Source: Cyanobium sp. E1_MAG_00006 (GTDB lineage Bacteria; Cyanobacteriota; Cyanobacteriia; PCC-6307; Cyanobiaceae). From it: a DNA stretch of 64,000 bases. Positions 9,831-14,395 of the stretch are shown one piece after another. The first letter of the stretch is position 1, and every line of letters begins with the position of its first letter. The position numbers and the translations under genes were made by a program. The DNA is taken from NCBI GenBank assembly GCA_027488975.1, contig JAIYAQ010000028.1, positions 1-64,000 of the forward strand. The letters are read 5' to 3'. The notes under the pieces were generated by a model, which was given only the letters and a program-made list of their open reading frames with translations, had not been told where the DNA came from and did not search any database.

Positions 9831-9957
9831 GAACCACACCCCAAGAACTTACCAGTCGGCCGATCCGCTCCCCTGGTTGATCTGCTGGCTGATCGGTTGG
9901 CCTGGCAGCCTCTGACTACCATCGGGCCAAGTGGTTCCCGGAGTGCCGGCGCCCCCC

Positions 9958-10404
9958 ATGCGCGTGCTGCTGCTCAACGGACCGAACCTCAACCTGCTGG
10001 GCCGGCGCGAGCCCGGGCTCTACGGGGCACAGACCCTTGAGGCGATCGAGGCGGATCTGGTGCGTCAGGCCGCGGCTCTCGGTGTGGCCCTGGAGTGTTT
10101 TCAGAGCAACCACGAAGGGGCCCTGGTGGACAGGATCCACGCCGCCAGCGGCCAGGCCGACGGCATCCTGATCAACGCCGGCGCCTACACCCACACCTCG
10201 ATCGCCCTTCGCGATGCCCTGCTGGGCGTGGCGATTCCCTTCGTGGAGCTGCACTTGAGCAACGTGCACGCGCGTGAGCCTTTTCGCCACCATTCCCACC
10301 TGGCAGATCGGGCTGTGGGCGTGATCTGCGGCTTCGGATCCGCCAGCTACGGGTTGGCACTGCAGGGCCTTGTGCAGCATCTGCGCCCGGTTGCCGGGGC
10401 ATGA
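9958..10404 (+). CDS. aroQ: type II 3-dehydroquinate dehydratase
   Basis: A 148-residue dodecameric type II enzyme that dehydrates 3-dehydroquinate to 3-dehydroshikimate in the shikimate pathway. Family signatures are [20 protein letters not shown] at the N terminus (with the catalytic tyrosine), a central [17 protein letters not shown], and [19 protein letters not shown]. The ATG at 9958 gives the usual length; a start nine codons upstream is less likely. The stop overlaps the ATG of the next gene as ATGA. Confidence 0.96.
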
Positions 10405-11039
10405 CGGCCATTCTCGAGAACCCCACCGCCCGGGTGAAGTGGCTGGCCGCTCCCAGCAGCGCCACCTGGCTGGCGGCGGCGATCGAGCGGTCTGATCTGG
10501 TGCTGATCGATCACGCCCACTGCGAGCGCAAGGCGGCTGGTGTGGCTCTGCAGCTGATGTTCCGGTATCCCTCAGATGAGCTTCTGGGGGCGGCGCTGAG
10601 TGCGCTGGCGCGTGAGGAGCTGGAGCATTTTGAGCAGGTGCTGCGGCTGCTTCAGGCTCGTGCCATCCCCCTGCGGCCCCTGCCTGCCCCCGCCTACGGC
10701 GCCACCCTCACGGCGGTGGTGCGCCGGGGCGAGCCGGAGCGGATGCTGGACGCCTTCCTGGTGGCGGGTCTGATCGAGGCGCGCAGCCATGAGCGCATGG
10801 CTCTGCTGGCGGCCCACAGCCCCGAGCCTGAGCTGCAGGATCTGTATGGCGCGTTATTGGCCAGCGAGGCGCGCCATTTCGGCCTCTACTGGCTGCTGGC
10901 CGAGGAGCGCTACGGGCGCGAGGCCACGGTGGCGCGGCTGGAGCAGCTGGCGGCCGTCGAGGTTCAGGCGCTCACGGGGGAATTGGCCAATCCGGAGGAT
11001 GTGCGCATGCATTCAGTGGGAGTGATTCCCGAAGGCTGA
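10401..11039 (+). CDS. miaE: MiaE-like tRNA-(ms2io6A37)-hydroxylase, di-iron
   Basis: A 212-residue ferritin-like di-iron protein matching the MiaE family, which hydroxylates the isopentenyl side chain at position 37 of certain tRNAs. Metal-ligand helices are visible as [40 protein letters not shown] and [10 protein letters not shown], giving the expected ExxH pattern. The start ATG overlaps the aroQ stop (ATGA), so translation is likely coupled although the pathways are unrelated. Activity on tRNA is inferred from the family. Confidence 0.85.
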
Positions 11040-11269
11040 ATGTGATCGACGGGTCTGCAAGAACAGCAGGCGGTCGTGCCGCTGCGGCAGCGGGATGGTG
11101 ACGCTCTCAACCCGCCTGTTCGTTAGGGTCGCTCCGCACGTTCGATTTCCCACGAGCACTTTCCCGTGCGGCAGCTGAGTTGATCCGAGGCGTCTCGCTG
11201 CCCTGCCGGTTGATCGCGCCGGCCCCCTGCCCTGATCTCCTGGCTACGCCGGACAACCTTTCTCCCTAG
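11040..11269. other. intergenic stretch without a supported gene
   Basis: This segment between the MiaE-like gene and the desaturase remnant holds no recognisable gene, tRNA or terminator with a U-tract. In the reading frame of the remnant a stop at 11267-11269 bounds it upstream, so a lost N-terminal part of the desaturase may once have lain here. Confidence 0.4.
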
Positions 11270-12200
11270 CAGATTCCCTACCCCAGCAAGGCCGAGCTGC
11301 TGGCCTGCCTGCCGCCGGAGCTGTTCAGTATCAAAGGGCTTCAGGCTTGGGGCAGTCTGATGCTCTCGCTTGGTCTGTCCCTGCTGGCGTAGGGCCTCGG
11401 CAGCTTGATTCCCCTTCGGCTCTGGGCTGCCCCCCTCTGGCACCTCTATGCCCTGATCACAGGCACCGCGGCAACCGGCTGCTGGGTGATCCCCCACGAG
11501 TGCGGTCACGGCGCGTTCCATCCGAACCGGCGCGTTGAGGCTGCTGTGGGCTTTTTTGCTGCACAGCCTGCTGTTGGTGCCGTACTTCACTTGGCAGCAC
11601 AGCCATGCGTTGCATCACGCCAATCGCAACCACCTCGAGGGTGGCGAAACCCATGTGCTGCCGCGGGCGGAGTCGTGGATGGGTCGCGTCGTGGCGGGCA
11701 CACGCCGGCGCCTTGGGCCCTGGCCCTTCGGGAATCTCGGTGTGCTGCTGATGCTGCTTGCCCTGGGATTGGCCGCGGTTCAGTTCTCTCTGGCGCAGGT
11801 TCTCTGCGTCTATGGCTTGCCCTGGCTTGTCGTCAATGCCTGGCTGGTTGGTTACACCTGGCTCCAGCACACCGAAACCGATATCCCTCACGTCTCATCG
11901 CCGGAGTGGACCTGGGCCAAGGGCGCCCTGGAGACGGTGGATCACCCTTACGGCCCGCTGCTGAACCTGCTGCATCACGGCATCGGTTCCACCCACGTGT
12001 GCCACCACATCAATCCGTGCATTCCCCACTGCAACGCCTGGCAGGCCAAAGCCCTGCTGCGGCAGCGTTTTCCCGATCTGGTGCGGCATGACCCCACCCC
12101 CGTCCACCGCGCCCTGTGGCGGGTCGCCACCCGCTGTTCGGTGGTGCGTCAGCAGGCTCCGGGGAGCGGCTTCTTCTATCTGGAGCCGCTGGCCCCGTAG
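11270..12200 (+). pseudogene. broken FAD2-like (delta-12 type) fatty acid desaturase
   Basis: Three frames together encode a membrane fatty acid desaturase. The first histidine box HECGHGAF lies in the frame open after 11392, the second (HSHALHH) and third (STHVCHH) lie in the frame that ends at 12200. In the first frame a TAG at 11390-11392 follows IKGLQAWGSLMLSLGLSLLA. The switch to the other frame occurs at a run of six T at 11552-11557, which reads as one base too many. No start codon is seen upstream before a stop at 11267-11269. The downstream piece alone (TTG at 11535) would lack the first histidine box. The intact family introduces double bonds into acyl lipids. A sequencing error could explain the T run but not the TAG as well. 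Confidence 0.8.
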
Positions 12201-12209
12201 CTGCCACGA

Positions 12210-12758
12210 TCAATACAGCAGGGGGTAGTGCTCGGCGATCGGGTCGCCGCTGAACTGGGCCACCCAGCCTGCCGGGTTGTCGAAGAACCGGATGGCGCAG
12301 AAGAGGGGCGCACTGCCCATGTCGAACCAGTGCTTTGTGCCCGCGGGCACGCGCAGGAAGTCATCCGCTTCGCAGAGCACCTGCAGCACCTCGTCGCCGA
12401 TGTGGAGGCAGAACAGGCCGCGGCCCTCCACGAAGAAGCGCACTTCGTCTTCGCTGTGGGTGTGCTCCGCCAGGAATTTCTGGCGCAGGGCCTGGCGATC
12501 GGGGTGATCCGGGGTGAGCCGGATGGCATCCACCGTGGGGTAGGTGCCGCTCGCCTGCACGCGTGCAATCTCCGGCGCATAGGCCTCCAGGATCTGCTCC
12601 GGAGCGGCACCGGCCGGTAGCTCCGCCCGCGCCGGCCAGCGCTCGTAACCGATGCCCCGTTCGGCCAGCTCTGCGCCGATCTGGGCGGCATCGGTGCAGG
12701 CCAGTAGCGGTAGGGGCTGGCGGCCGCTGGCGGCTGTGAAGATCTCGAGTCGACTCAC
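12210..12758 (-). CDS. mtnD: acireductone dioxygenase, methionine salvage
   Basis: A 182-residue cupin enzyme that oxidises acireductone to the 2-keto-4-methylthiobutyrate precursor of methionine (iron form) or to methylthiopropionate and CO (nickel form). The metal ligands are visible as H-T-H-S-E-D-E with the following GxxxHWFDMG histidine, in EHTHSEDEVRFFVEGRGLF and PAGTKHWFDMG. The start is the ATG at 12758. It is distant from mtnC and mtnB (about 11 kb) although the three act in succession. Confidence 0.95.
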   Translation of the reverse strand: MSRLEIFTAASGRQPLPLLACTDAAQIGAELAERGIGYERWPARAELPAGAAPEQILEAYAPEIARVQASGTYPTVDAIRLTPDHPDRQALRQKFLAEHTHSEDEVRFFVEGRGLFCLHIGDEVLQVLCEADDFLRVPAGTKHWFDMGSAPLFCAIRFFDNPAGWVAQFSGDPIAEHYPLLY

Positions 12759-12870
12759 CGGCGTTCAGCGCCATGGTGCCTTCAGCCTAGAAAGGGTGCT
12801 CCAGCGCCACCAGTGGGGGGCAGCCGTGCCTGAGGCCGATCGATTGCTGGCGCTGGCGCCGGCCGTGACC

Positions 12871-13614
12871 ATGCCTGCCGTGACCGTGGTGGGCGTCGGT
12901 CCCGGCGATCCCGATCTGCTCACCGTGGCAGCCGTGCGCGCTATCGCGGCGGCGGCGGTGGTGGCCTATCCGGTGGCTCAGCCGGAGGCGGAGGGCATGG
13001 CTGCCCGCATCGCTGCTCCCTGGATTGCCCCTGGTCAGCGACGTCTGCCGCTGCTGTTCCCGATGGTGGAGGAGCCCGAACCGCGCATCGCTGCCTGGCA
13101 TGCCGCCGCCGATGCCCTGGCCGCCGAAGTGGCGGCCGGACGCTCTGTGGTGCTGCTGTGTGAGGGGGATGCCTCGCTGTACGCCAGCTGCTCCTATGCC
13201 CTGCTGGCTTTGCGCCGGCGCCACCCCGGCTGTGCCCTCACGGTGGTGCCCGGCATCACGGCGGTGGCGGCAGCGGCTGCTGCCGCCTCGTCGCTGGGTC
13301 TGCCCTGGCCCCTGGCCCTGCAGCAGGAGAGCCTGCTGATCCGCCCCACGCCCGAGACCCCGGCGGAGCTGGAGGCGTTGCTGGAGCGCTCGGCCGCCGA
13401 GGGCACGGTGCTGGCGCTGCTCAAGCTGGGGCGCCGCTGGGCCTGGCTGCGGCCGCTGCTGGAGCGGCGCGGGCTGCTGGGGCAATGCCTGTTCGCCCGG
13501 CGGGTGGGCTGGCCCGATCAGTTGCTGGCGTCGGCGGATCAGGTGCCGGCCGAGGAACAGCCCTACTTTTCGCTGCTGTTGATCCGCCAGGCCTGGCCGG
13601 CGGTGCTGCCTTGA
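12871..13614 (+). CDS. cobI: precorrin-2 C20-methyltransferase
   Basis: A 247-residue SAM-dependent tetrapyrrole methylase acting in cobalamin synthesis. The N terminus has VTVVGVGPGDPDLLTVAAVRAI, typical of the precorrin methylase fold, followed by a LLCEGDASLYASCSYALLAL segment and a VVPGITAVAAAAA segment. The ATG at 12871 places the GxGPGDP loop at the N terminus; a GTG at 12826 is a possible earlier start. Length fits the family. It lies beside mtnD in the opposite orientation. Which C20 or C11 step is used cannot be fixed by eye, but the C20 assignment is the best match. Confidence 0.85.
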   Translation: MPAVTVVGVGPGDPDLLTVAAVRAIAAAAVVAYPVAQPEAEGMAARIAAPWIAPGQRRLPLLFPMVEEPEPRIAAWHAAADALAAEVAAGRSVVLLCEGDASLYASCSYALLALRRRHPGCALTVVPGITAVAAAAAAASSLGLPWPLALQQESLLIRPTPETPAELEALLERSAAEGTVLALLKLGRRWAWLRPLLERRGLLGQCLFARRVGWPDQLLASADQVPAEEQPYFSLLLIRQAWPAVLP

Positions 13615-13645
13615 GCCAAGGTCGGGGCTGATTGCCTTTCCGTTG

Positions 13646-14395
13646 ATGACCCCCATCGACTGGTTCGCTCTGCTCCATCCGGTGCTGGTGATCCTGTTCG
13701 TGTACCCAGTGGTGGGAGCCACGATCCGGCTGGGGATCCTGGTGCGGGAGCGGCGCCTCGGTATCACCAAGCAGCTGCCCGCCGTGTCGCGGGAGCACAG
13801 CGACCATGGCCTCTGGGTCACCGCCGGGGTGGTGGTGGCGGTGCTGATCGCCCTGGCTTACTCGTTTCTGAGCAAGGCGTTCGACCCAGCTGCGGTCTTC
13901 CCAGGCGGCACGGCGCGGCTGGCCCTGCTGTTGCTGGTGGCCGCCGGCACCCTGGTGGCCCTGCTGGCGCTGCTGCGGGTGAAGCGGGCGTCCCTGCGGG
14001 CCAGCTTCGCCCTGCTCACCTGGGCGGGACTGCTGGGGCTCGGCAGCCAGCCGGAGATCTGGCGGCTGTCCGACAACCCCTTCACCCCAGAGTTCTGGAG
14101 CTCGCACTACTGGAGCGGCGTGCTGCTCACCGGCCTGCTGCTGTTCACCCTGGCGATCCGACCGGAGATCAGTCGCCAGCTGCGCTGGCGACGCCTGCAC
14201 GTGGCGGCCAACATCCTGGTGATGGTGCTGCTGGCGGTGCAGGCGATCACCGGCAGCCGCGATCTGCTGGAGATCCCACTCAGCTGGCAGAAGCCGGCGA
14301 TCTATCGCTGTGATTTCCAGGCCCGCACCTGTCCGGAGCCAGCTGCTGCGGCACCAGGCTCAGACGGTCCGGCTGCAATGCCAGCCCAGGCCTGA
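13646..14395 (+). CDS. DUF4079 family membrane protein
   Basis: A 249-residue protein with about six hydrophobic helices: WFALLHPVLVILFVYPVVGATI, GLWVTAGVVVAVLIALAY, LALLLLVAAGTLVALLALL, FALLTWAGLLGLGS, WSGVLLTGLLLFTLAI and LHVAANILVMVLLAVQAITG. The LHP and HVAANI...QAITG segments are typical of the cyanobacterial DUF4079 family, a cytochrome-b561-like fold with histidines in membrane helices. Function unknown. ATG at 13646 (a TTG lies one codon earlier). Its 3' end overlaps the glycosyltransferase gene on the opposite strand by 116 bases (14280-14395), in a poorly conserved Ala/Pro-rich tail. Confidence 0.8.
   Translation: MTPIDWFALLHPVLVILFVYPVVGATIRLGILVRERRLGITKQLPAVSREHSDHGLWVTAGVVVAVLIALAYSFLSKAFDPAAVFPGGTARLALLLLVAAGTLVALLALLRVKRASLRASFALLTWAGLLGLGSQPEIWRLSDNPFTPEFWSSHYWSGVLLTGLLLFTLAIRPEISRQLRWRRLHVAANILVMVLLAVQAITGSRDLLEIPLSWQKPAIYRCDFQARTCPEPAAAAPGSDGPAAMPAQA

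Follow-up and report, generated by a model that had tools for sequence, protein, structure and literature searches.

What became of a fatty acid desaturase gene in a picocyanobacterial genome whose remnant still carries all three histidine boxes, and where did this gene come from? The question is raised by a locus in Cyanobium sp. E1_MAG_00006 (genome G000; 2,698,210 bases in 40 contigs), and it was addressed in the first 64,000 nucleotides of contig JAIYAQ010000028.1 (assembly GCA_027488975.1), a stretch of DNA that we call the window. The remnant lies within contig C1 (79,488 bases), surrounded by DNA with a G+C content of about 64-69%. An original prediction, made from the letters of the window, had described a decaying desaturase similar to the oleate delta-12 desaturases of plants, possibly acquired and then lost. 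Our analysis leads us, with high confidence, to regard the locus as a pseudogene of the b-type desaturases, intact in the last ancestor that the window genome shared with its sister G218, the nearest species sampled, and decayed in the window lineage, where another gene of this type (copy B) likely allowed the loss. A search of titles and abstract openings found no publication on this pseudogene, which does not prove that none exists.

Table 1. Features of the desaturase locus and its neighbours in the window (position 1 is the first letter of the window), with the copy-B loci of six genomes in the last row.
Feature	Position	Strand	Basis
aroQ	9931-10404	+	
miaE-like gene, left neighbour	10401-11039	+	PF06175
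Desaturase remnant	11180-12200	+	translation, homology to the G218 gene, same slot
TTG, probable original start	11180-11182	+	same place in G218, G150 and G189
In-frame TAG, new in this analysis	11267-11269	+	reading, translation
In-frame TAG, given in the original prediction	11390-11392	+	reading, translation, alignment to sister
Histidine box 1, PHECGH	11492-11509	+	translation
Six-T run, one base more than in the sister gene (frameshift)	11552-11557	+	reading, alignment
Histidine box 2, WQHSHALHHANRN (shifted frame)	11592-11630	+	translation
Deletion junction between boxes 2 and 3 (174 bp or 58 codons lost, in frame)	11732/11733	+	alignment to L039
Histidine box 3, HVCHH	11994-12008	+	translation
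ARD family gene (acireductone dioxygenase-like), right neighbour	12210-12758	-	PF03079
cobI-like precorrin-2 C20-methyltransferase gene	12829-13614 (start approximate)	+	TIGR01467 over cut-off
DUF4079 gene	13643-14395	+	
Copy-B loci of G000, G218, G286, G148, G319 and G372	L156, L154, L155, L157, L158 and L160, in this order		

The lesions were established by reading, translation and alignment (Table 1). In agreement with the original prediction, its TAG shares the reading frame of box 1, the T run holds one base too many, and the three boxes are distributed over two frames, the second of which contains boxes 2 and 3 and is open to the stop at 12198-12200. The list of lesions given there was incomplete, as a second TAG upstream and an in-frame deletion had been overlooked. 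Base-by-base alignment identifies the 174 bp missing from the window as positions 2020-2193 of L039, the sister contig; the deleted stretch contains a hydrophobic segment, and the gap removes 12 columns that are invariant in the family. With two TAGs, one frameshift and this deletion, a single full-length open frame is absent from the window, and the standard code yields no full-length protein from the gene. A corrected T run of five and another base at 11390, which would have overturned the earlier interpretation, would leave the gene broken all the same, because the deletion and the other TAG would remain. At the level of domains, the longer window piece scores 40.8 bits against FA_desaturase (PF00487), above the curated cut-off of 29.7, the shorter piece scores 20 bits and falls under it, and the sister gene reaches 81 bits. 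Among the NCBIfam equivalogs, neither the longer piece (25.7 bits with NF052548) nor the sister gene (54.5 bits) attains the cut-off of 500. A sequence search of solved structures gave no relative and one chance match (E 0.2).

The original prediction had also counted the lack of a visible start codon among the defects. There is indeed no ATG; the sister gene has none near the conserved PSKAELL motif either, and a TTG is retained upstream of the interval that the prediction covered. Since a TTG recurs about 20-33 codons upstream of PSKAELL in 32 of the 45 distinct relatives checked, and is kept at 11180 in the window, the start codon probably does not belong to the set of lesions.

Sequence searches place the relatives of the window among Synechococcaceae-type cyanobacteria. 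Across 300 family genomes, the best match to the longer piece outside its own genome is found in G218 (81% identity over the aligned part), on contig CAIZNP010000239.1 (L039) of an uncultured Synechococcaceae metagenome assembly; a separate search of genome contigs returned two loci only, one of which is a distant Acidimicrobiales gene. The desaturase gene of L039 is open throughout and stands in the same order as in the window, i.e. miaE - desaturase - ARD - cobI, so that the intact orthologue to be looked for in a sister strain was found in the same slot. The base-by-base comparison counts 86 mismatches in 1172 aligned bases, besides the extra base of the T run and the 174-base deletion, a degree of similarity that reflects homology and not chance. 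Identity amounts to 93% and 95% in the two aligned stretches that span the desaturase pieces together with the neighbours, and the proteins encoded alongside share 92% (miaE), 97% (ARD) and 98% (cobI) identity in the BLAST segments. Further downstream, the reverse strand of the window contains one open frame of 8351 codons (17367-42419) with a G+C content of 46-63% against about 69% around it; matches to Calx-beta, Cadherin_5 and Big_9 point to a giant surface or adhesin-like protein.

The broken gene bears marks of relaxed constraint in its sequence. In a tree of 46 desaturase rows (family genomes, the sister and one distant Acidimicrobiales record), whose root is a very long distant row and whose deep forks are therefore unsure, the end branch of the window measures 0.11 and that of G218 0.011. 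The window row deviates at nine of 118 positions that are invariant in the other rows; one of these is an edge effect of the deletion, which leaves eight. The other 44 rows have no more than three such deviations each, and the median for the whole set of 45 is 0. One of the sites under strong conservation is the alanine before HECGH: it does not vary among the 43 further family rows used, no fewer than 40 of which have a letter at this position, and is replaced by proline in the window. When changes were polarised by six outgroup genes, a procedure that left 22 of 57 differences unassigned, the window branch received 17 non-synonymous and 10 synonymous changes and the G218 branch one and seven (Fisher p = 0.018). 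With G150 as sole outgroup, all but six of the 57 differences were assigned, and the counts are 19/16 and 3/13 (p = 0.031). By pairwise dN/dS the broken copy cannot be told from working genes: its values, 0.30 overall and 0.25 when the N-terminal tail is left out, are hardly higher than those of copy B (0.24) or miaE (0.27). Relaxation shows only in the polarised counts, and the contrast becomes weak when these are set against the copy-B branch of G000 (p = 0.088).

Could the gene be intact after all? An extra base in a homopolymer is a common type of sequencing error, and the T run sits at the change of frame, where a slippery site might be expected if readthrough of stops and frameshifting were programmed and the enzyme still made. 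Errors of sequencing or assembly are nevertheless very improbable as the cause. The gene of G218 is whole in the same place; two separate TAGs, the 174-bp deletion and eight changes at invariant positions would all have to be erroneous; the neighbouring genes have full-length frames; and the site lies in the interior of a 79-kb contig, away from the ends. Programmed recoding has a practically negligible probability: ribosomes would have to get past two stops and a frameshift on the same mRNA, all three lesions are absent from the sister gene, the deletion takes away 12 columns invariant in the family, and constraint looks relaxed. The pseudogene is thus retained as the explanation, and the following steps are proposed for it. 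Judging by its family, the whole enzyme would have possessed a di-iron centre bound by the three histidine boxes, and would have introduced a second double bond into membrane-lipid fatty acids. Judging by the whole G218 copy, the gene was presumably intact at the same place in the ancestor that G218 and the window genome share. The window lineage then gained the two in-frame stops, the frameshift and the deletion of the hydrophobic segment, as the comparison of the two genes shows; a piece that lacks box 1 or the deleted segment should be inactive. This loss was likely tolerated because the lineage already had copy B on contig C17 – the copy is observed, its causal role is what we presume.

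Which desaturase has decayed here can be told from motifs. In Chi et al. (2008; PMC2593844), a clade of delta-12 homologues from Synechococcus and Prochlorococcus (clade 1, b-type) is defined by the boxes AHECGH, WX2SHX2HHX3N and HX2HH, which resemble those of microsome-type desaturases; the cyanobacterial genes are placed with diatom desaturases, apart from higher plants and some green algae, and the b-type is reported for only four of the marine Synechococcus strains treated there. The sister gene on L039 fits all three of these boxes, AHECGH included. The window gene fits box 2 and box 3 of the published description; it differs in box 1, with PHECGH in place of AHECGH, and as a broken copy that is 58 codons short between boxes 2 and 3. 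Hence it would be assigned to the b-type by motif, and not by a tree with named proteins; it is a decayed descendant of this type and not a working member, and the delta-12 position specificity, taken over from the family, is putative. The classical cyanobacterial DesA (clade 3, chloroplast-like delta-12) belongs to the same superfamily (FA_desaturase) and presumably catalyzes the same reaction, but the boxes HDCGH, HX2HH and HXPHH given for it in PMC2593844 are not those of the window, which has HECGH and HVCHH. With the plant microsomal FAD2, by contrast, the window gene has the HECGH-type box 1 in common, and its resemblance to this oleate desaturase probably goes further than this box. The motifs therefore bear out the earlier view of a decaying desaturase of microsomal-like type. 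The accompanying claim that such a family is unusual for the group found no support: the type was described in 2008, and matches to the longer piece at E <= 1e-40 occur in 154 of 300 family genomes, in 109 of the 196 of good quality and in 33 of 59 genera. Other studies report that the presence of desaturases varies among freshwater picocyanobacteria (PMC9361551) and that desaturases are regulated by temperature, salinity and light (PMC12834511, PMC7393227). Elsewhere in G000, the boxes of another desaturase gene (L007; C2:28920-29759) fit the c-type (clade 4, Bacillus delta-5-like) as characterized in PMC2593844.

The distribution of the slot gene within the genus was studied in 25 genomes, the window's own included, in which matches to the desaturase, miaE and cobI were sought. 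Four contain the desaturase in the slot (G000, G218, G150 and G189). In ten, the matches to miaE and cobI are only about 0.6-0.7 kb apart, which leaves room for ARD alone, and ARD was seen in between in both of those that were read (G064 and G251). Seven genomes have wider gaps, and four could not be judged. The five wider gaps that were read hold other sequence, with no desaturase remnant (best E 1.6); in the sequence preceding the G150 gene, a search for remnants gave a best E of 0.60. The interval between miaE and ARD (window 11040-12209; L065, L070-L076) is thus variable in the genus, being empty, occupied by the desaturase, or filled with other sequence. In the same slot of G177, a second, partial miaE match lies beside the full gene (L071 3191-3322), perhaps the remnant of a duplication.

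Two of the four slot copies are broken, and in different ways. The copy of G000 carries small mutations and a deletion; the orthologue of G189 is cut by an insertion sequence between the contig ends C44 and C94 (end of L066, start of L067). The insert has inverted ends (TGACGTG...) and a 4-base duplication, and its ends match 12 and 20 places in the G189 genome, as expected of a multi-copy element; a complete copy encodes a transposase with HTH_21 and rve domains. Judged by the sequences, the slot gene has been inactivated twice, by different routes. It would also appear to be dispensable, given the ten of 25 genus genomes without room for it and the split gene of G189. No other gene of the type was found in G189 at E <= 1e-50 (a draft of 160 contigs), hence redundancy does not explain the loss in this genome, and the slot gene may be lost without a second copy.

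In an rpoB tree of 45 genomes, G000/G218 and G150/G189 form two subclades of the genus. The desaturase tree disagrees with this history, as the slot copies group with genes from other genera, apart from the other genes of the genus (fork 99/100). Two interpretations are open to the slot gene: either it is ancestral to the genus and has often been lost, or it entered, or moved between species, by recombination.

In the window genome, FA_desaturase is matched ten times, at nine places, counting the window's own. One of them, copy B (C17:4665-5795; L003/L068), is of the same family as the window gene and comprises 378 open codons with all three boxes, the lone TGA counted in it being its own stop. 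Where the two can be aligned, it shares 68% identity with the longer window piece; its place in the genome and its phylogenetic position are different. G218 likewise has copy B as a full-length frame of 378 codons with all three boxes. The copies of G000 and G218 group with genes of another genus, g6 (G286 and G148; 100/99), in spite of the separation of the genera by rpoB, which suggests transfer or old paralogy. The effect on membrane lipid unsaturation that had been envisaged for the loss of the window gene is uncertain, because C17 still carries this other full-length frame of the type.

A loose end is the start of copy B. Its frames in G000, G218, G286 and G148 show no ATG, GTG or TTG until codons 54-82 (codon 64 in G000), and the 378-codon frames of G319 and G372 have none in the codons printed before PSKAELL. 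The ratio pN/pS is 1.34 in the 18 codons before this motif, 0.44 in the 45 codons from it onwards and 0.20 later, so the 45 codons are under some constraint. One codon near the expected start reads ATC in G218, G286, G319 and G372, CTG in G148 and AGC in G000, and an out-of-frame ATG is present in G000, G218, G286 and G148. A near-cognate start (ATC or CTG) is possible; another idea is a shift from the out-of-frame ATG. The AGC codon casts doubt on the copy of G000, and it is unproven that copy B, with no usual start before codon 64 there, is a real replacement for the slot copy (copy A).

These observations bear on two further explanations of the broken gene. According to one, transfer brought the gene in and it was later lost, as the original prediction had proposed. 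In its favour, most of the assessable genomes of the genus lack the slot gene, the slot differs between species, and the slot copies group against rpoB. We consider it unlikely nonetheless: the same slot is occupied in G218, G150 and G189, across two rpoB subclades, so that an arrival, if there was any, predates the window species; the family matches in more than half of the genera sampled; the deep forks of the gene tree are unsure; and a search for carriers found nothing in a phage collection and eight records in a plasmid collection (seven from Streptomyces, one from Agarilytica), all below 60% identity. An earlier transfer may thus have taken place, but the gene is not new to the strain, as three other species of the genus have it in this slot too. 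According to the other explanation, both copies are failing, i.e. copy B has lost its start too and b-type desaturation is disappearing from the strain. The AGC of G000, at a codon where four relatives have ATC and a fifth CTG, and the missing start codon would fit this reading. Against it, the G000 copy B retains its open frame and all boxes, its branch length (0.056) is close to that of the G218 copy (0.055), and its polarised changes are 10 non-synonymous and 17 synonymous; a failure of both copies is fairly doubtful. A broader picture, in which the b-type is subject to turnover, the slot copy being repeatedly lost and here yielding to a horizontally spread copy B that lacks an ATG, GTG or TTG start and is translated, for example, from a near-cognate ATC or CTG, is offered as a tentative possibility.

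The pseudogene that we favor among these explanations is an ordinary one of a known family, a gene loss caught half way. Its value lies in the setting: at one conserved place, a desaturase copy is seen between the whole state of the sister species and its absence in other species, which makes for a clean example, and another species shows a different inactivation of the same slot gene. For the family at large, draft annotation may count dead copies as desaturase genes, and gene calls may be too short because ATG starts are often missing.
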